Origin: a virus
Strand: one strand, 5' to 3'
IMG/VR virus record: IMGVR_UViG_3300020204_000209
Span: 1 to 33,139 of that record
DNA length: 33,139 bases
Shown here: piece after piece, positions 3,587-32,818 of the stretch
How positions within the stretch are numbered: position 1 is the first letter of the stretch
Layout of the letters: each line of letters starts with the position of its first letter
Notes under the pieces: model-generated
Databases searched by the model: none
What the model saw: only the letters and a program-made list of their open reading frames with translations
Told to the model about the DNA's origin: nothing
Program-made: the position numbers and the translations under genes

Positions 3587-4417
3587 TTATCCGATCATAT
3601 CAAACGGTGGTAATTCATATGTGCTCATCATTTTCTCCATAATTTGATCTATCTCTCTTTGAGCATCTTCATATATTTCTCTTCCATTAAACTCAACTCC
3701 ACCTGGAAGTTTCATTCCTCTAAATTTCAATAAATTTTGCCCCCATTGCCTTTTTATCAAAGATGTCAAGTAGGGTTTTAAGAACGAATCATTCCAAACT
3801 CTAGAGTAATCATTCGGATCTAAAGTCGAATAGCAATCAATGACAAGATATTGGTCTGCTCTAATTGCAGACCAATCCACATCCATGTACAATCTATCTT
3901 GCCTCTTATTAAATCTTATTTGTTTTTGAGGGTTTAACAGAAAATCAATATCTTCAAGGTATCTCTTAGTCATGCTATAAGTTAGTAATTCAAGTGATCC
4001 CCAATAATAAAGATCATTTAGAAATAATTGATATTTAATACTAAACATTCCGCTCGAAACACTATTTGTTCCATCATATTGGAATATTTTATTTACTCCG
4101 ATAATATTGGGTGGAATTTGAATATAATTTTGATTTTCTTCAAATCCAAAATTCGTCGGAGATCCTGAAATATTTGATGTGGCAGATGTAGTTCCTACTC
4201 CAACCTTTCCTCTTGCTCTGTTAATATCTTGTTGAGTTACTTTGTATTTGTAATAAGTTTGAATAACACCATCAAAATGTCTTTCTTGAAAAAGTTGAAT
4301 TGCATCATCAACTAAATCTTCAATTTGTTCATCAGCTACATTAATTTCTAAAACTGGCGCACCCAGTTTTCTTTTACAATAATCTATTAACTCTTGTCTA
4401 GTTGTTGGTTGCGCCAT
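3587..4417 (-). CDS. gp13: Neck protein, gp13-like
   Basis: This 276-aa protein is close in length to T4 gp13 (309 aa as I recall) and has the cyanophage gp13 pattern: TTRQELIDYCKRKLGAPVLE and INVADEQIEDLVDDAIQLF at the N-terminus, a KYQLFLNDLYYWGS region, RLYMDVDW, and LKPYLTSLIKRQWGQNL then KFRGMKLPGGVEFNG near the C-terminus. It should form the neck together with gp14 and connect the portal vertex to the tail. A late-promoter-like ATAAATA (4441-4447) and an AAAGG sequence precede the ATG, with a predicted leader of about 18 bases, which suggests that gp13, gp14, gp15 and gp16 can be transcribed as their own late unit. Confidence 0.92.
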   Translation of the reverse strand: MAQPTTRQELIDYCKRKLGAPVLEINVADEQIEDLVDDAIQLFQERHFDGVIQTYYKYKVTQQDINRARGKVGVGTTSATSNISGSPTNFGFEENQNYIQIPPNIIGVNKIFQYDGTNSVSSGMFSIKYQLFLNDLYYWGSLELLTYSMTKRYLEDIDFLLNPQKQIRFNKRQDRLYMDVDWSAIRADQYLVIDCYSTLDPNDYSRVWNDSFLKPYLTSLIKRQWGQNLLKFRGMKLPGGVEFNGREIYEDAQREIDQIMEKMMSTYELPPFDMIG

Positions 4418-10800: not shown

Positions 10801-12653
10801 GGTTTTGCATATGCAATAATGTCATCAATTCTTACTAAGTTATTGAAACTTGCGTTTGATGCTGTAATGACACCAACGGTTGAAGAACCACTTGTTTCGC
10901 CAGTAATTACAAAATCAGAACCGGTTACAGTTAAATTTAGAGCGGAATCAAGAATTGCATCAGCATTAAATGAAGTCTGCAATCCAACAGATGCCGCATT
11001 CTGAAAAACTGATTTAATATCAGAAATCCCATAATCATAAACTGATGTTGTTAAGAAATTTTGTTTTACGCCATTTACAATTAAATTTTCATTCTTTATA
11101 AATTTTCCAGTCGTATTTGTTAATGTTAATACCGTATTTCCCGCAGCAGCGTTGTATTTTAAATGACCACTCGCACCACTAGAAGATCCCTGAATATACG
11201 CAGGAATACTCAATCCGGTTGACCCTAAAGTATTAATCCCAATAGTTGTAAATGTTTGTATATCATATAAATATAGATTAAACTCTGTGGTTGCATTTGA
11301 ATATTGATCCTCAGATATGAAATCGTAAACCCTAGCTGTACCAACAGTGGTAACACCTGATTGGTTAAATCCAGAGGTCAAATTTCTTCTAACATTTCTC
11401 AAATCAACAGTAGTTGAATTTTCATACCCAACTTTTGGCCATCCAAATACATTATTGACTTTAAGTACTGTTCCATTATCAATATAAACTGAATTTGTTG
11501 GTATACCTACTGTTGTTCTTGGTTTTTTAACATCAATAAATTCTGGTGAAATAGTTTCTATATCATATCCTCTAACATATGCCTTACCTGGCATCACTTG
11601 ATATGTTAAGAGATTATCCGATGGTATATTTCCGCTAGGAGTCCTTTGGCTTGGCAAAAATAATCCTTCATTACCAGTTAAGTTATTAAGAGTTTCTTTG
11701 GGAAATACTTCAAATGGTTTAATTGAATAATCGCCAGATTCATCGTAAGTTCTTCTGGCAAGTTCATTTCTTATTAGATTATATTGGGAACGATCTACAA
11801 ATTTTTCAATTGAACCATTTTTTAATCTAACCAATTCAATAAAATTTTGATCGTTAAAATCATCAATTTTCTTTTTAAATAAAACTAAAGATATTTTAAG
11901 TCTATCAGCACCTGGTGCTGTATAGTTTGAAAATCCTTGAGCATTGTCATTTAAAGAATCATCATCAAATGAAGTAATAATGTTTTCATCAACTATTAAT
12001 CCAACTCTTGCGGATGGTTGATTGCTATACTGATCTAAAATTATTGTTTGTTTCCTTACATTGACAAAATAACCCCTTGTATAATAGACCCCATCATTAA
12101 TTGTCGCAGCAGAAGCCTTGAATGCTGCATCTGATGCTACTGTGTTTGCAAATGTAGTACCTGATTTAATTAAAGTGGAACCATATATTATATTTGAAGA
12201 TGTTATCAATGGTTCCCCATTAATAAAAAATTGCTCTCCTGTTGAAGGATTTGATTTAAGATATTTTACATATAAAGTGTTGACACTTTGTTCAGATCTT
12301 GTAAAGTCTAAAACCTTAACAACTTTCGCAACAACACCAGAAGTTGCTCCTGTTATTTCAACATCAATTAATTTTTCCAAGTAAGATGTTACAGGAACGC
12401 CAAAAAAAGTAGAATCAATTTTTACGCCATAATATTCAAAGTCAACTCCAATGGATCCAGGTATGACCATAGATCCTTCTTTGAAAAAGTGAGAACCAAA
12501 TTTTTCTACTTGATTCTGTAAAATTGATTGAAGAGTTGTTAATTCTCTTGCTTGAACAGGTTGCCCTGGTTTGAAAAGAACTTTATGAAAGTCTTTAGAC
12601 TCATCATAATCATCAAAATAAGGGGAAACATTAAGATTAGTTTGTTGAGGCAT
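4845..12653 (-). CDS. Giant virion structural protein, DUF4815-type, 2602 aa
   Basis: The N-terminus (NLNVSPYFDDYDESKDFHKV, then LFKPGQPVQARELTTLQSIL, QNQVEKFGSHFFKEGSMVIP) is the start of the T4-like cyanophage structural family that I remember as DUF4815. A second conserved stretch is at about residues 1040-1220 (ALEIGTVYLPPYVYNAREVK, then SKLESRISNVEFYTSLSLLE). About residues 1750-1930 (ITCQIRSLVAGNPTQ, TFPSPVYLPANQEYGL) resemble a tail/baseplate beta domain. At about 2171-2255 there is a beta module ending VVRGQFNTIPTAHN that recurs in gp15 and the 4074-aa protein. Family members are virion parts, probably baseplate periphery or fibre attachment; the exact position is an inference. No late promoter is seen before it; it follows gp8 by four bases. 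It is unusually long, built mostly of Thr/Ser/Gly/Asn-rich beta sequence. Confidence 0.85.
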   Translation of the reverse strand: MPQQTNLNVSPYFDDYDESKDFHKVLFKPGQPVQARELTTLQSILQNQVEKFGSHFFKEGSMVIPGSIGVDFEYYGVKIDSTFFGVPVTSYLEKLIDVEITGATSGVVAKVVKVLDFTRSEQSVNTLYVKYLKSNPSTGEQFFINGEPLITSSNIIYGSTLIKSGTTFANTVASDAAFKASAATINDGVYYTRGYFVNVRKQTIILDQYSNQPSARVGLIVDENIITSFDDDSLNDNAQGFSNYTAPGADRLKISLVLFKKKIDDFNDQNFIELVRLKNGSIEKFVDRSQYNLIRNELARRTYDESGDYSIKPFEVFPKETLNNLTGNEGLFLPSQRTPSGNIPSDNLLTYQVMPGKAYVRGYDIETISPEFIDVKKPRTTVGIPTNSVYIDNGTVLKVNNVFGWPKVGYENSTTVDLRNVRRNLTSGFNQSGVTTVGTARVYDFISEDQYSNATTEFNLYLYDIQTFTTIGINTLGSTGLSIPAYIQGSSSGASGHLKYNAAAGNTVLTLTNTTGKFIKNENLIVNGVKQNFLTTSVYDYGISDIKSVFQNAASVGLQTSFNADAILDSALNLTVTGSDFVITGETSGSSTVGVITASNASFNNLVRIDDIIAYAKPSQNILTFNRVTSIDSAARKISIAGITTISSICDGAVSTSTVDTSNVFVLRPSLELKNFGSFFNPLKYPNISSVDVSLGDIEITYQFTGINASTGAFSIDLDSVADFQDKPSVFWKSFSVNNYRLVNSNGTIIPLRSGNIQIIGRVLYVRDINLIGTGTSNSVFTCILDKKSIKSKTKLFNSIQDLVISRSKYIQSGIGTTTLNNGLEYSAVYGTRVEDDEICLNTTDVFRVYGVYESSNTDNPVLPTITIAEITSPSTTNSEFVVGETLRSFTTSAKALVVSKIGNDKLEIQYLNETEFSPSEQLVSFTSGITARCTGVILGDKNVISDYYFDNGIRPEYYDYSRLIKSTKTIEPKRKLRVICQKYSIPTGDTGDFFTVNSYPADNYQSISLIPYRNGYKRNSDGIDIRPRVKDYSLSSTRSPFEFDGKNFAETKENSEFVLTPNTSVEIAYNFYVGRIDKIYLNRDGKFFVSEGTPAIEPKLPANEDSALEIGTVYLPPYVYNAREVKFVRTDSKRYTMKDISKLESRISNVEFYTSLSLLESDTNSLVIKDPATGLDRFKSGFFVDNFKSLSLVNTLEPNWGCSIDTVAGEARPLHHTPAIDLQLGSSAIPGVTSSVDENQDLAFVTDLGNPNVRKTGDLLTLNYTEVEFQSQLFATRTENVNPFNIVNWSGSIEMQPASDVWIETSAPTVNNVSFEGSYQAFMDLYPPEADGWSAIQWNAWEENFAGRTEDTRPLGGAVVLNETSATSNWELGRFDDTRIHISSNGAAAAIKAGDITAANTIINSLNAQGTTSNLTSSENFIKPGAVTPGFFGTEESGAGWQQLKRTTTKTTQSGQATEVTVNRPFTRSGVSFKVSESIDTQSLGSKVVSREVIPNLRIRNIEFTARRLKPSSTMYAFFDGVNVNGYVIPKLIEIQMVDGIFQPGERVVGFMPGDNTSLVGDGVNPRILFRLANANHKYGPYNDPTETYTTNPYDGTTQVETTYSVSSTLLNVDTYSLSDITSNSLGWIAPNQILVGLTSKAQARITSVRLVTDQSGSLKGCLFIPDSTTPTNPKFATGTKTFKLTDSVTNSLIGGQTNSSAEVAWFASGQLDNLQEDVVSIRNARVEKKDHNDKKVETERRQEFRVTENTVKEDEVKWVDPLCQSFVTGNGSGIFVTSMEVFFRTKSSSIPITCQIRSLVAGNPTQKIPEFGEVTLDPKDVFVSEDGSISTKFTFPSPVYLPANQEYGLTLLSNSDEYNVFIARMGEIDVRTVNNDESGQIIVSQQPSAGVLFKSQNGSTWTANQYEDLKYIINKAKFVTDTGTVRFYSPILSESNNLIRRLRNNPVIMNSKQLKIGISTIISNDDLANIPIGIAITQSGFSGRLVGLGGTIKQSDQGIIVNDVGIGITPLSGSFTYNNVYVTSETGLNARCQITVQDGKIVSTGVTVTSGGNGYQIGQRLSIASTSFAQIGNETPILSVGMLENGRNVMFVDNVQGSFNQTSVIQYVNSSGVAVTFVNQTPNTFSIFPDNSKDGLHMNVKYYGHAMHSANNIVEISNLKPDATPVLTLLQPLSNASTDIIVTSIGNTSILENFSTYENISVGSTTPGYVQIGSEIIKYTGINNSGTGLNGVVRGQFNTIPTAHNINDKVLKYELNGVSLARLNTTFNFNEVTIPNKDARDLDSFYVRVNTQSQTSGSTVILTDRTGTGSLPALYFRETKNDGGTNVKASKNIQFESVHPNVQTFTPADTFIRAALRTITATSIGSVQNENVSEEESFRDTGFEPIVLNENNKFNSPRLIASRANELEYLDNLPGNRSMTLELNLNTTQEDISPVVDLNRVSAILTSNRINNPVNDFATNGDIMSPFDDPHAAIYITKPISVENPATSLKVMFAANKPTGCDIRALYKIYRNDGPANPDYELFPGYSNLNSSMEIIDPSKNNGSSDKFIATTTLDNQFVDHEFTINNLPEFKAYAIKLIFTSTNQANVPRIRDFRVIALA

Positions 12654-32211: not shown

Positions 32212-32304
32212 TAGTGGTAAGTCTTGAGTGTTAGCGGGGCGGTGATGTGTGCCCCTCATACTATAGGTACAGTTTAGACGATCCTAACTTTAATACCGTG
32301 AAGA

Positions 32305-32505: not shown

Positions 32506-32534
32506 ACTATAAGTCTTCTGGGCAAGAATGTCAA
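32506..32534 (-). promoter_or_regulatory. Sigma70-like early promoter driving the tiny-gene cluster
   Basis: TTGACA (32529-32534, minus) and TATAGT (32506-32511) are separated by exactly 17 bases. The start would be near 32499, about 20 bases before the 57-aa gene ATG with its AGGAG site. This is the expected form of a promoter read by host RNA polymerase. Confidence 0.82.
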
Positions 32535-32607: not shown

Positions 32608-32636
32608 TTGACATTTTCGCGGAGTTGTGATACAAT
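32608..32636 (+). promoter_or_regulatory. Near-consensus sigma70 promoter on the plus strand
   Basis: TTGACA (32608-32613) and TACAAT (32631-32636) with a 17-base spacer. It is the only strong promoter I see on the plus strand, and no plus-strand gene follows. Transcription would begin near 32643, meet a weak hairpin with a T-run (GGTCT / AGACC, 32654-32676, then CTTTTT) and pass through the TTTTCCACA boxes and the AT-rich stretch. Confidence 0.8.
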
Positions 32637-32665
32637 GCACGCAAAGATCACAAGGTCTCAGCACA

Positions 32666-32694
32666 TTTATAAGACCCTTTTTCCACAGTTTCAA
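32666..32694 (-). promoter_or_regulatory. Sigma70-like promoter facing the plus-strand promoter
   Basis: On the minus strand TTGAAA (32689-32694) and TATAAA (32666-32671) are separated by 17 bases. The spacer contains the first TTTTCCACA box. Its start (near 32659) and that of the plus-strand promoter (near 32643) face each other about 16 bases apart, so the two should interfere. Confidence 0.65.
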
Positions 32695-32708
32695 CATACT
32701 TTTCCACA
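32679..32708 (+). promoter_or_regulatory. Two DnaA-box-like 9-mers, 21 bp apart
   Basis: TTTTCCACA occurs exactly at 32679-32687 and 32700-32708 in the same orientation, two helical turns apart. As I recall, this is the DnaA-box consensus reported for cyanobacteria (E. coli: TTATNCACA). TTTCAACAT (32689-32697) and ATGTTGAAA (32712-32720) form a perfect inverted repeat that encloses the second box. Confidence 0.6.
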
Positions 32709-32793
32709 AACATGTTGAAAACGTATATACATTTAAAAACACATTTAATTGATAAAAAAACACTTTTTTACCTTATTTTAACATAAAAAGCAT

Positions 32794-32818
32794 AAAAAAA
32801 GACCCCATAAGTGGGGTC
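32794..32818 (-). terminator. Strong intrinsic terminator after the rightmost gene
   Basis: On the minus strand GACCCCA / TGGGGTC form a 7-bp stem (32812-32818 with 32801-32807) with a four-base loop, followed by seven T residues (32794-32800). It lies 12 bases after the stop codon of the 95-aa gene. Confidence 0.92.

Follow-up and report, generated by a model that had tools for sequence, protein, structure and literature searches.

The closest described systems are the replication origins of phage T4, where oriF and oriG span ~100 bp and comprise a promoter and an AT-rich element, and where oriE combines iterons with an early promoter (PMC3016281). On the side of the cyanobacterial host, S. 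elongatus, Anabaena and Cyanothece use TTTTCCACA as their DnaA box, and domain IV of Cyanothece DnaA binds cooperatively to pairs of it (PMC4674748). T4-like cyanophages are among the most abundant viruses of the sea, and where their replication starts is not described in the literature searched: we found no account of a T4-like cyanophage origin there (subscription papers lay largely outside the search, and an earlier mention is possible), and a literature query for phage origins that contain DnaA boxes gave no result. Here we describe a short conserved non-coding element that is probably the replication-origin core of T4-like cyanophages (Kyanoviridae), with host DnaA helping at its boxes. 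On our best reading it would resemble T4 oriE/oriF, with host-DnaA boxes added in ~60% of its members.

The window analyzed is the whole 33,139-bp IMG/VR record IMGVR_UViG_3300020204_000209, itself a phage fragment, close to Synechococcus phage S-SM2. It encodes a terminase small subunit, a sheath stabiliser, a head closure protein, baseplate wedge proteins (gp53-, gp6- and gp25-type) and giant structural proteins, and the baseplate genes bear out the earlier note's attribution of this DNA to a T4-like cyanophage. At the right end all genes lie on the minus strand, and the element sits within a 350-bp gap between two of them. The right-hand protein, P0001, was considered as a homologue of the conserved GC637 gene and rejected (20-27% identity, heavy gaps). 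A dispersed motif, CTCATACTATAGGNACNCTTTAGA, recurs where small minus-strand genes begin, TATAGT lying directly beside the ATG (window 32254-32284; L003 at 6118 and 7150; L004 at 3893, 5095, 5314, 6580 and 7037), which we read as a repeated promoter or leaderless start signal. The features of the element and its borders are as follows.

32506-32534, minus strand: divergent sigma-70 promoter, TTGACA-17-TATAGT, serving the left-hand minus-strand genes.
32608-32636, plus strand: sigma-70 promoter, TTGACA-17-TACAAT (11/12 consensus, TG before the second hexamer), reading into the element; aligned in 32 relatives.
32637-32669, plus strand: conserved leader GCACGCAAAGATCACAAGGTCTCAGCACATTTA, the second part of which is an iteron-like unit of 21-30 bp, single in this contig and tandem in some relatives.
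32679-32687, plus strand: DnaA box 1, TTTTCCACA, at the same position in S-SM2.
32688-32696, plus strand: putative degenerate box GTTTCAACA, flanked by the two exact boxes and roughly one helical turn away from box 1.
32700-32708, plus strand: DnaA box 2, TTTTCCACA, left arm of a conserved terminal inverted pair.
32713-32721, minus strand: degenerate box TGTTGAAAA in inverted orientation, forming the right arm of this pair.
32721-32800, no strand assigned: AT-rich block, 84% AT, candidate DNA unwinding element.
32801-32818, minus strand: intrinsic terminator of the right-hand minus-strand gene, marking the element boundary.

The element in the contig thus holds two exact and two degenerate boxes. 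As the earlier note had it, the exact copies lie on one strand with starts 21 bp apart, no further exact copy occurs within the 33,139-bp contig, the 80-bp block contains just 13 G+C, and a plus-strand promoter, the sigma-70 promoter listed above, reads into both boxes and block. The perfect inverted repeat it reported at 32689-32697 / 32712-32720 is indeed exact, but is not the part that is conserved: relatives retain the pair formed by box 2 and the degenerate inverted box at 32713-32721, with TGTGGAGAA or TGTGGAAAA as the right arm. The S-SM2 counterpart of GTTTCAACA is TTATCAACA. Taken alone, the observation is only moderately unusual. At least two exact TTTTCCACA copies occur in 25 of 100 dinucleotide shuffles of the contig, so that two copies in themselves are not out of the ordinary, while two on one strand 21 bp apart are estimated to arise by chance on the order of 1 in 1000; other 84% AT stretches start at 11816 and 19868. 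It is because the element is conserved that it stands far above chance, with 115 TTNTCCACA boxes in 75 non-redundant relatives against ~1.1 expected.

The element, made up of sigma-70 promoter, leader, DnaA boxes (in ~60% of members) and AT-rich block, is found in 109 IMG/VR stretches, defined as matches to a pattern for the -10 region plus leader, and in at least 12 phage isolates. Its usual setting is between the baseplate cluster (gp25/gp6) and small early-type genes, on the strand opposite to its neighbours. Of 20 cyanomyovirus genomes, 11 gave a single strong copy with a sequence-only model of promoter plus leader; Syn19 gave a weak copy, S-CAM9 two extra weak matches (one being a neighbouring iteron) and T4 none. 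The layout predicted for related cyanophages was recovered at the same place, for instance in S-SM2, whose alignment in a 2.6-kb search runs across the element and shows both boxes, again 21 bp apart. Nor are the boxes spread over the genome: two of the three exact boxes in the 190 kb of S-SM2 fall in the element, as does the only exact box in the 229 kb of S-SCSM1, where a TTCTCCACA box precedes it by 12 bp. The element also occurs in phages S-8S53, S-8S55, S-8S56 and S-PRM1, where it has TTACTCCACA-like sites together with TTTTTCCACA.

Genome-wide box scans that made no use of the leader gave the element as top box cluster in S-SM2, Syn19, S-BM3, Syn9 and S-SM1. In Syn9, where the element lies at about 52.5 kb, and in S-SM1 the leader model had given nothing, yet the box scan still pointed to the element, and inspection revealed a diverged leader (GTGCTAAGA..., then ...ACATTTA) in the same synteny: the element is flanked by the conserved T4-GC 637 gene and, at its other end, by gp25/gp6, and lies on the strand opposite to these genes. 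A diverged promoter, leader and AT block precede, on the 5' side, the sole close box pair of S-PM2, and many TTTTCCACA pairs found blindly in IMG/VR proved to be further variants of the element. It was not found in complete P-HM1 or S-RSM4, nor in the examined parts of P-SSM2 and ACG-2014f. Two annotated tRNA genes of S-PM2, tRNA-Asn and tRNA-Leu (AJ630128, 19177-19333), overlap or abut its copy of the element, which lies at about 19.24-19.42 kb, and this annotation looks doubtful. Dense TTTTCCACA arrays lacking the cyanophage promoter and leader were also seen in other large phage contigs, namely L080 and L028 (identical sequence, on 284-kb and 50-kb contigs) and L026.

Box enrichment was assessed in the 235 nt downstream of the leader in the 75 non-redundant elements, with expectations taken from flanking DNA of the same contigs. 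Forward TTNTCCACA boxes number 81 against ~0.64 expected and reverse boxes 34 against ~0.44, counts whose statistical independence is overstated in that the elements share descent; at least one box is present in 45 of the 75 and at least two in 40. With no prior choice of motif, TTTTCCACA emerges as the most enriched 9-mer, occurring in 41 of 75 elements compared to five occurrences in 520 kb of flanks, and its 65 occurrences compare with a mean of 0.2 and a maximum of 6 for permuted 9-mers. Variants are almost confined to positions 1-3, mostly to A, with TCCACA nearly invariant, a substitution profile which, as judged from the sequences, is that of a DnaA box, known to tolerate changes at these positions. 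Neighbouring same-strand boxes are spaced by 11-12, 20-22, 31-32 or 42 bp, with a single exception of 98, and thus lie in helical phase, as one would expect if proteins were arrayed along a single face of the DNA. Two features of DnaA-dependent origins, at least two clustered host-type boxes and helical phase beside an AT-rich region, are therefore found here.

One alternative is that the locus is a plain intergenic regulatory region, made up of a terminator with late and early promoters, the boxes being bound by some other phage or host protein. The minus-strand terminator and late-promoter motifs fit this: a minus-strand TATAAAT late-promoter motif lies within the AT block in 33 of 75 elements (3% of background), and TATTTATA, which is a minus-strand TATAAATA late promoter, lies between the divergent promoters in 32 of 72. 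The base composition of the AT block, on average 75% AT in 40 relatives versus 64% background, speaks for an origin, but the TATAAAT motif could account for part of the block's conservation. Such a region leaves the exact DnaA-box specificity profile with its helical phasing unexplained, and we consider this alternative most unlikely.

Could DnaA instead act here as a transcription factor that times early transcription rather than replication, the boxes serving as its operator, either downstream from the plus-strand promoter or in the interval separating this promoter from the divergent operon? DnaA is known to regulate promoters in bacteria. A divergent minus-strand sigma-70 promoter is present upstream in 65 of 72 relatives (5% of background stretches) at a nearly constant distance from the plus-strand promoter, by our own measure mostly 73-76 nt, and such a near-fixed pair is what an operator might serve. 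Against this, the plus-strand promoter drives no gene in most relatives, a plus-strand ATG frame of at least 60 codons lying nearby in only 7 of 52, and the boxes are found at least 40 nt downstream of the start, adjoining the AT-rich block. We thus regard transcriptional control as an unlikely role, and an origin as the preferred one.

The strongest objection to the origin reading comes from the family itself. DnaA boxes do not occur in every member: 30 of the 75 elements (40%) have no TTNTCCACA box, yet keep promoter, leader and AT block, and carry other repeats (e.g., AGTAACTC with GAAGACCC) or shorter inserts instead. A different initiator may act at these replacement repeats. Both the boxed and the box-less class, the latter exemplified by Bellamy, include phages that infect strains WH7803, WH8109 and WH8102, so the boxes are not essential to the element as such. 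The AGTAACTC/GAAGACCC repeat or a GGTATTATTGGGTAGTATCC segment was noted 40-150 nt after the leader in L141, L146, L151, L155, L189, L221, L224, L230 and others. At one end of contig IMGVR_UViG_3300037961_004308 both element types, the one with boxes and the other with AGTAACTC repeats, lie near each other (L173 and L186), which is either a real tandem origin or an assembly join. The leader varies as well: in S-CAM9 (L237, about 4090-4200) four to five tandem iterons of 21-22 bp, CACAAGACCCTGAGCACTTTA, are built from the leader unit, and L083 holds several tandem copies that are longer than those of S-CAM9, tandem iterons overall measuring 21-30 bp.

The host side qualifies what may be expected of DnaA. 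The DnaA proteins of WH7803 and RCC307 carry the box-reading motif GGKDHTTV, and beside dnaN in these strains there is no exact box cluster, only degenerate boxes such as TTTTCCACG. The earlier note's description of the boxes as host-type therefore stands on other cyanobacteria: it holds for S. elongatus, Anabaena and Cyanothece (PMC4674748), but not for marine Synechococcus WH7803 and RCC307, whose boxes near dnaN are degenerate. In the presumed marine Synechococcus oriC (L453/L454 for WH7803 and L455/L456 for RCC307, joined ends) TTTTCCACG and TTTTCCCCA precede a conserved TATTACGGCTGTTTA stretch. Since the boxes there are only degenerate, the phage arrays are better DnaA-box arrays than the presumed oriC of WH7803 and RCC307, which would either fit a phage that competes well for DnaA or serve as a warning that DnaA is not the ligand. 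Synechocystis replicates without DnaA.

A dense cluster of many perfect boxes, occurring once per genome and set against degenerate boxes in the host oriC, would also suit a datA-like decoy that titrates host DnaA and so halts initiation on the host chromosome. Two to four boxes are few for this purpose, though replicated phage copies would add up, and titration accounts for neither promoter, leader, iterons and AT block nor the box-less members; it is in our view quite unlikely.

The conserved promoter and leader might instead belong to a gene for a small regulatory RNA, which would be read from the plus strand and run antisense to the operon. The promoter is strong and conserved, as is the leader, and the contig transcript folds somewhat better than its shuffles (z -2.7). 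RNAalifold, however, returned no consensus base pair across 30 aligned elements, an Rfam scan gave only sub-threshold chance matches with none above gathering score, plus-strand terminators are present in only 5 of 62 relatives, and from one relative to the next the middle of the element is exchanged entirely. The left arm of the terminal inverted pair never departs from an exact box, and the right arm drifts without compensation; together with the lack of RNAalifold pairs, this places the constraint on DNA rather than on an RNA hairpin. An RNA gene is accordingly very unlikely.

Returning to the origin reading, DnaA binding, melting, priming and origin activity are what we infer from an anatomy of early-type promoter, repeats, phased DnaA boxes and AT-rich block, present in single copy and in synteny. 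In the mechanism proposed, host RNA polymerase would start at the plus-strand sigma-70 promoter (32608-32636) soon after infection, and its transcript would run across the leader and the boxes into AT-rich DNA. Host DnaA would bind the helically phased TTTTCCACA array, including the inverted pair in the contig, and may help to open, or hold open, the AT-rich DNA or help in helicase loading. As at T4 oriF, the transcript may persist in an R-loop from which the first leading strand is primed, after which the phage replisome (gp41, gp59, gp43) would take over. The leader, iterated in some relatives as 21-30 bp units, may bind a second, phage-encoded protein. GC and TA skew show no step at the element in nine genomes; in most of these the detrended GC skew peaks some 8-18 kb downstream, probably reflecting gene content.

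More tentatively, with the balance just short of even, a large group of T4-like cyanophages may initiate at one conserved single-copy origin that recruits host DnaA via helically phased boxes, a hybrid of T4 origin and bacterial oriC whose box module may disappear or be exchanged for other repeats. With a short conserved element and one sharp molecular prediction, binding by host DnaA, the idea can be put to direct test in established systems such as Synechococcus WH7803 and WH8109 with S-PM2 or Syn9. If true, it would tie a T4-type phage to host replication licensing, give read-depth studies of uncultured cyanophages an origin marker to centre on, and make the modular swapping of DnaA boxes for other repeats a natural experiment on initiator choice.

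Compared to known systems, the element shares with T4 oriF/oriG a length of about 100-200 bp, a promoter reading into an AT-rich block and its residence in a T4-type phage. It differs in that the T4 promoters are middle-mode MotA promoters, whereas the cyanophage promoter has a -35 TTGACA (early type; TTGACA-17-TACAAT), and in the added DnaA-box array; T4 itself contains no match to the element. With oriE it has in common an early-type promoter (as judged by its sigma-70 consensus) and synteny in related phages, and some relatives also show direct repeats of an iteron-like kind, but the iterons of oriE are 12 nt, while the cyanophage repeats are unrelated to these, 21-30 bp long, a single unit in the contig, and accompanied by DnaA boxes. 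Bacterial and cyanobacterial oriC offer the identical box TTTTCCACA, helical spacing, an inverted pair and adjoining AT-rich DNA; unlike these, the element belongs to a lytic phage that brings its own replisome, does not lie beside dnaA or dnaN, has fewer boxes and a predicted active promoter reading through, and is box-less in 40% of members. Iteron plasmid origins (pSC101, RK2, R6K gamma) likewise combine direct repeats, DnaA boxes and an AT-rich block, although the element resides on a phage genome and no Rep protein gene was identified. Finally, the phage lambda origin resembles it in transcription through repeats adjoining AT-rich DNA, but the lambda repeats lie within gene O, bind the phage O protein and come without DnaA boxes.
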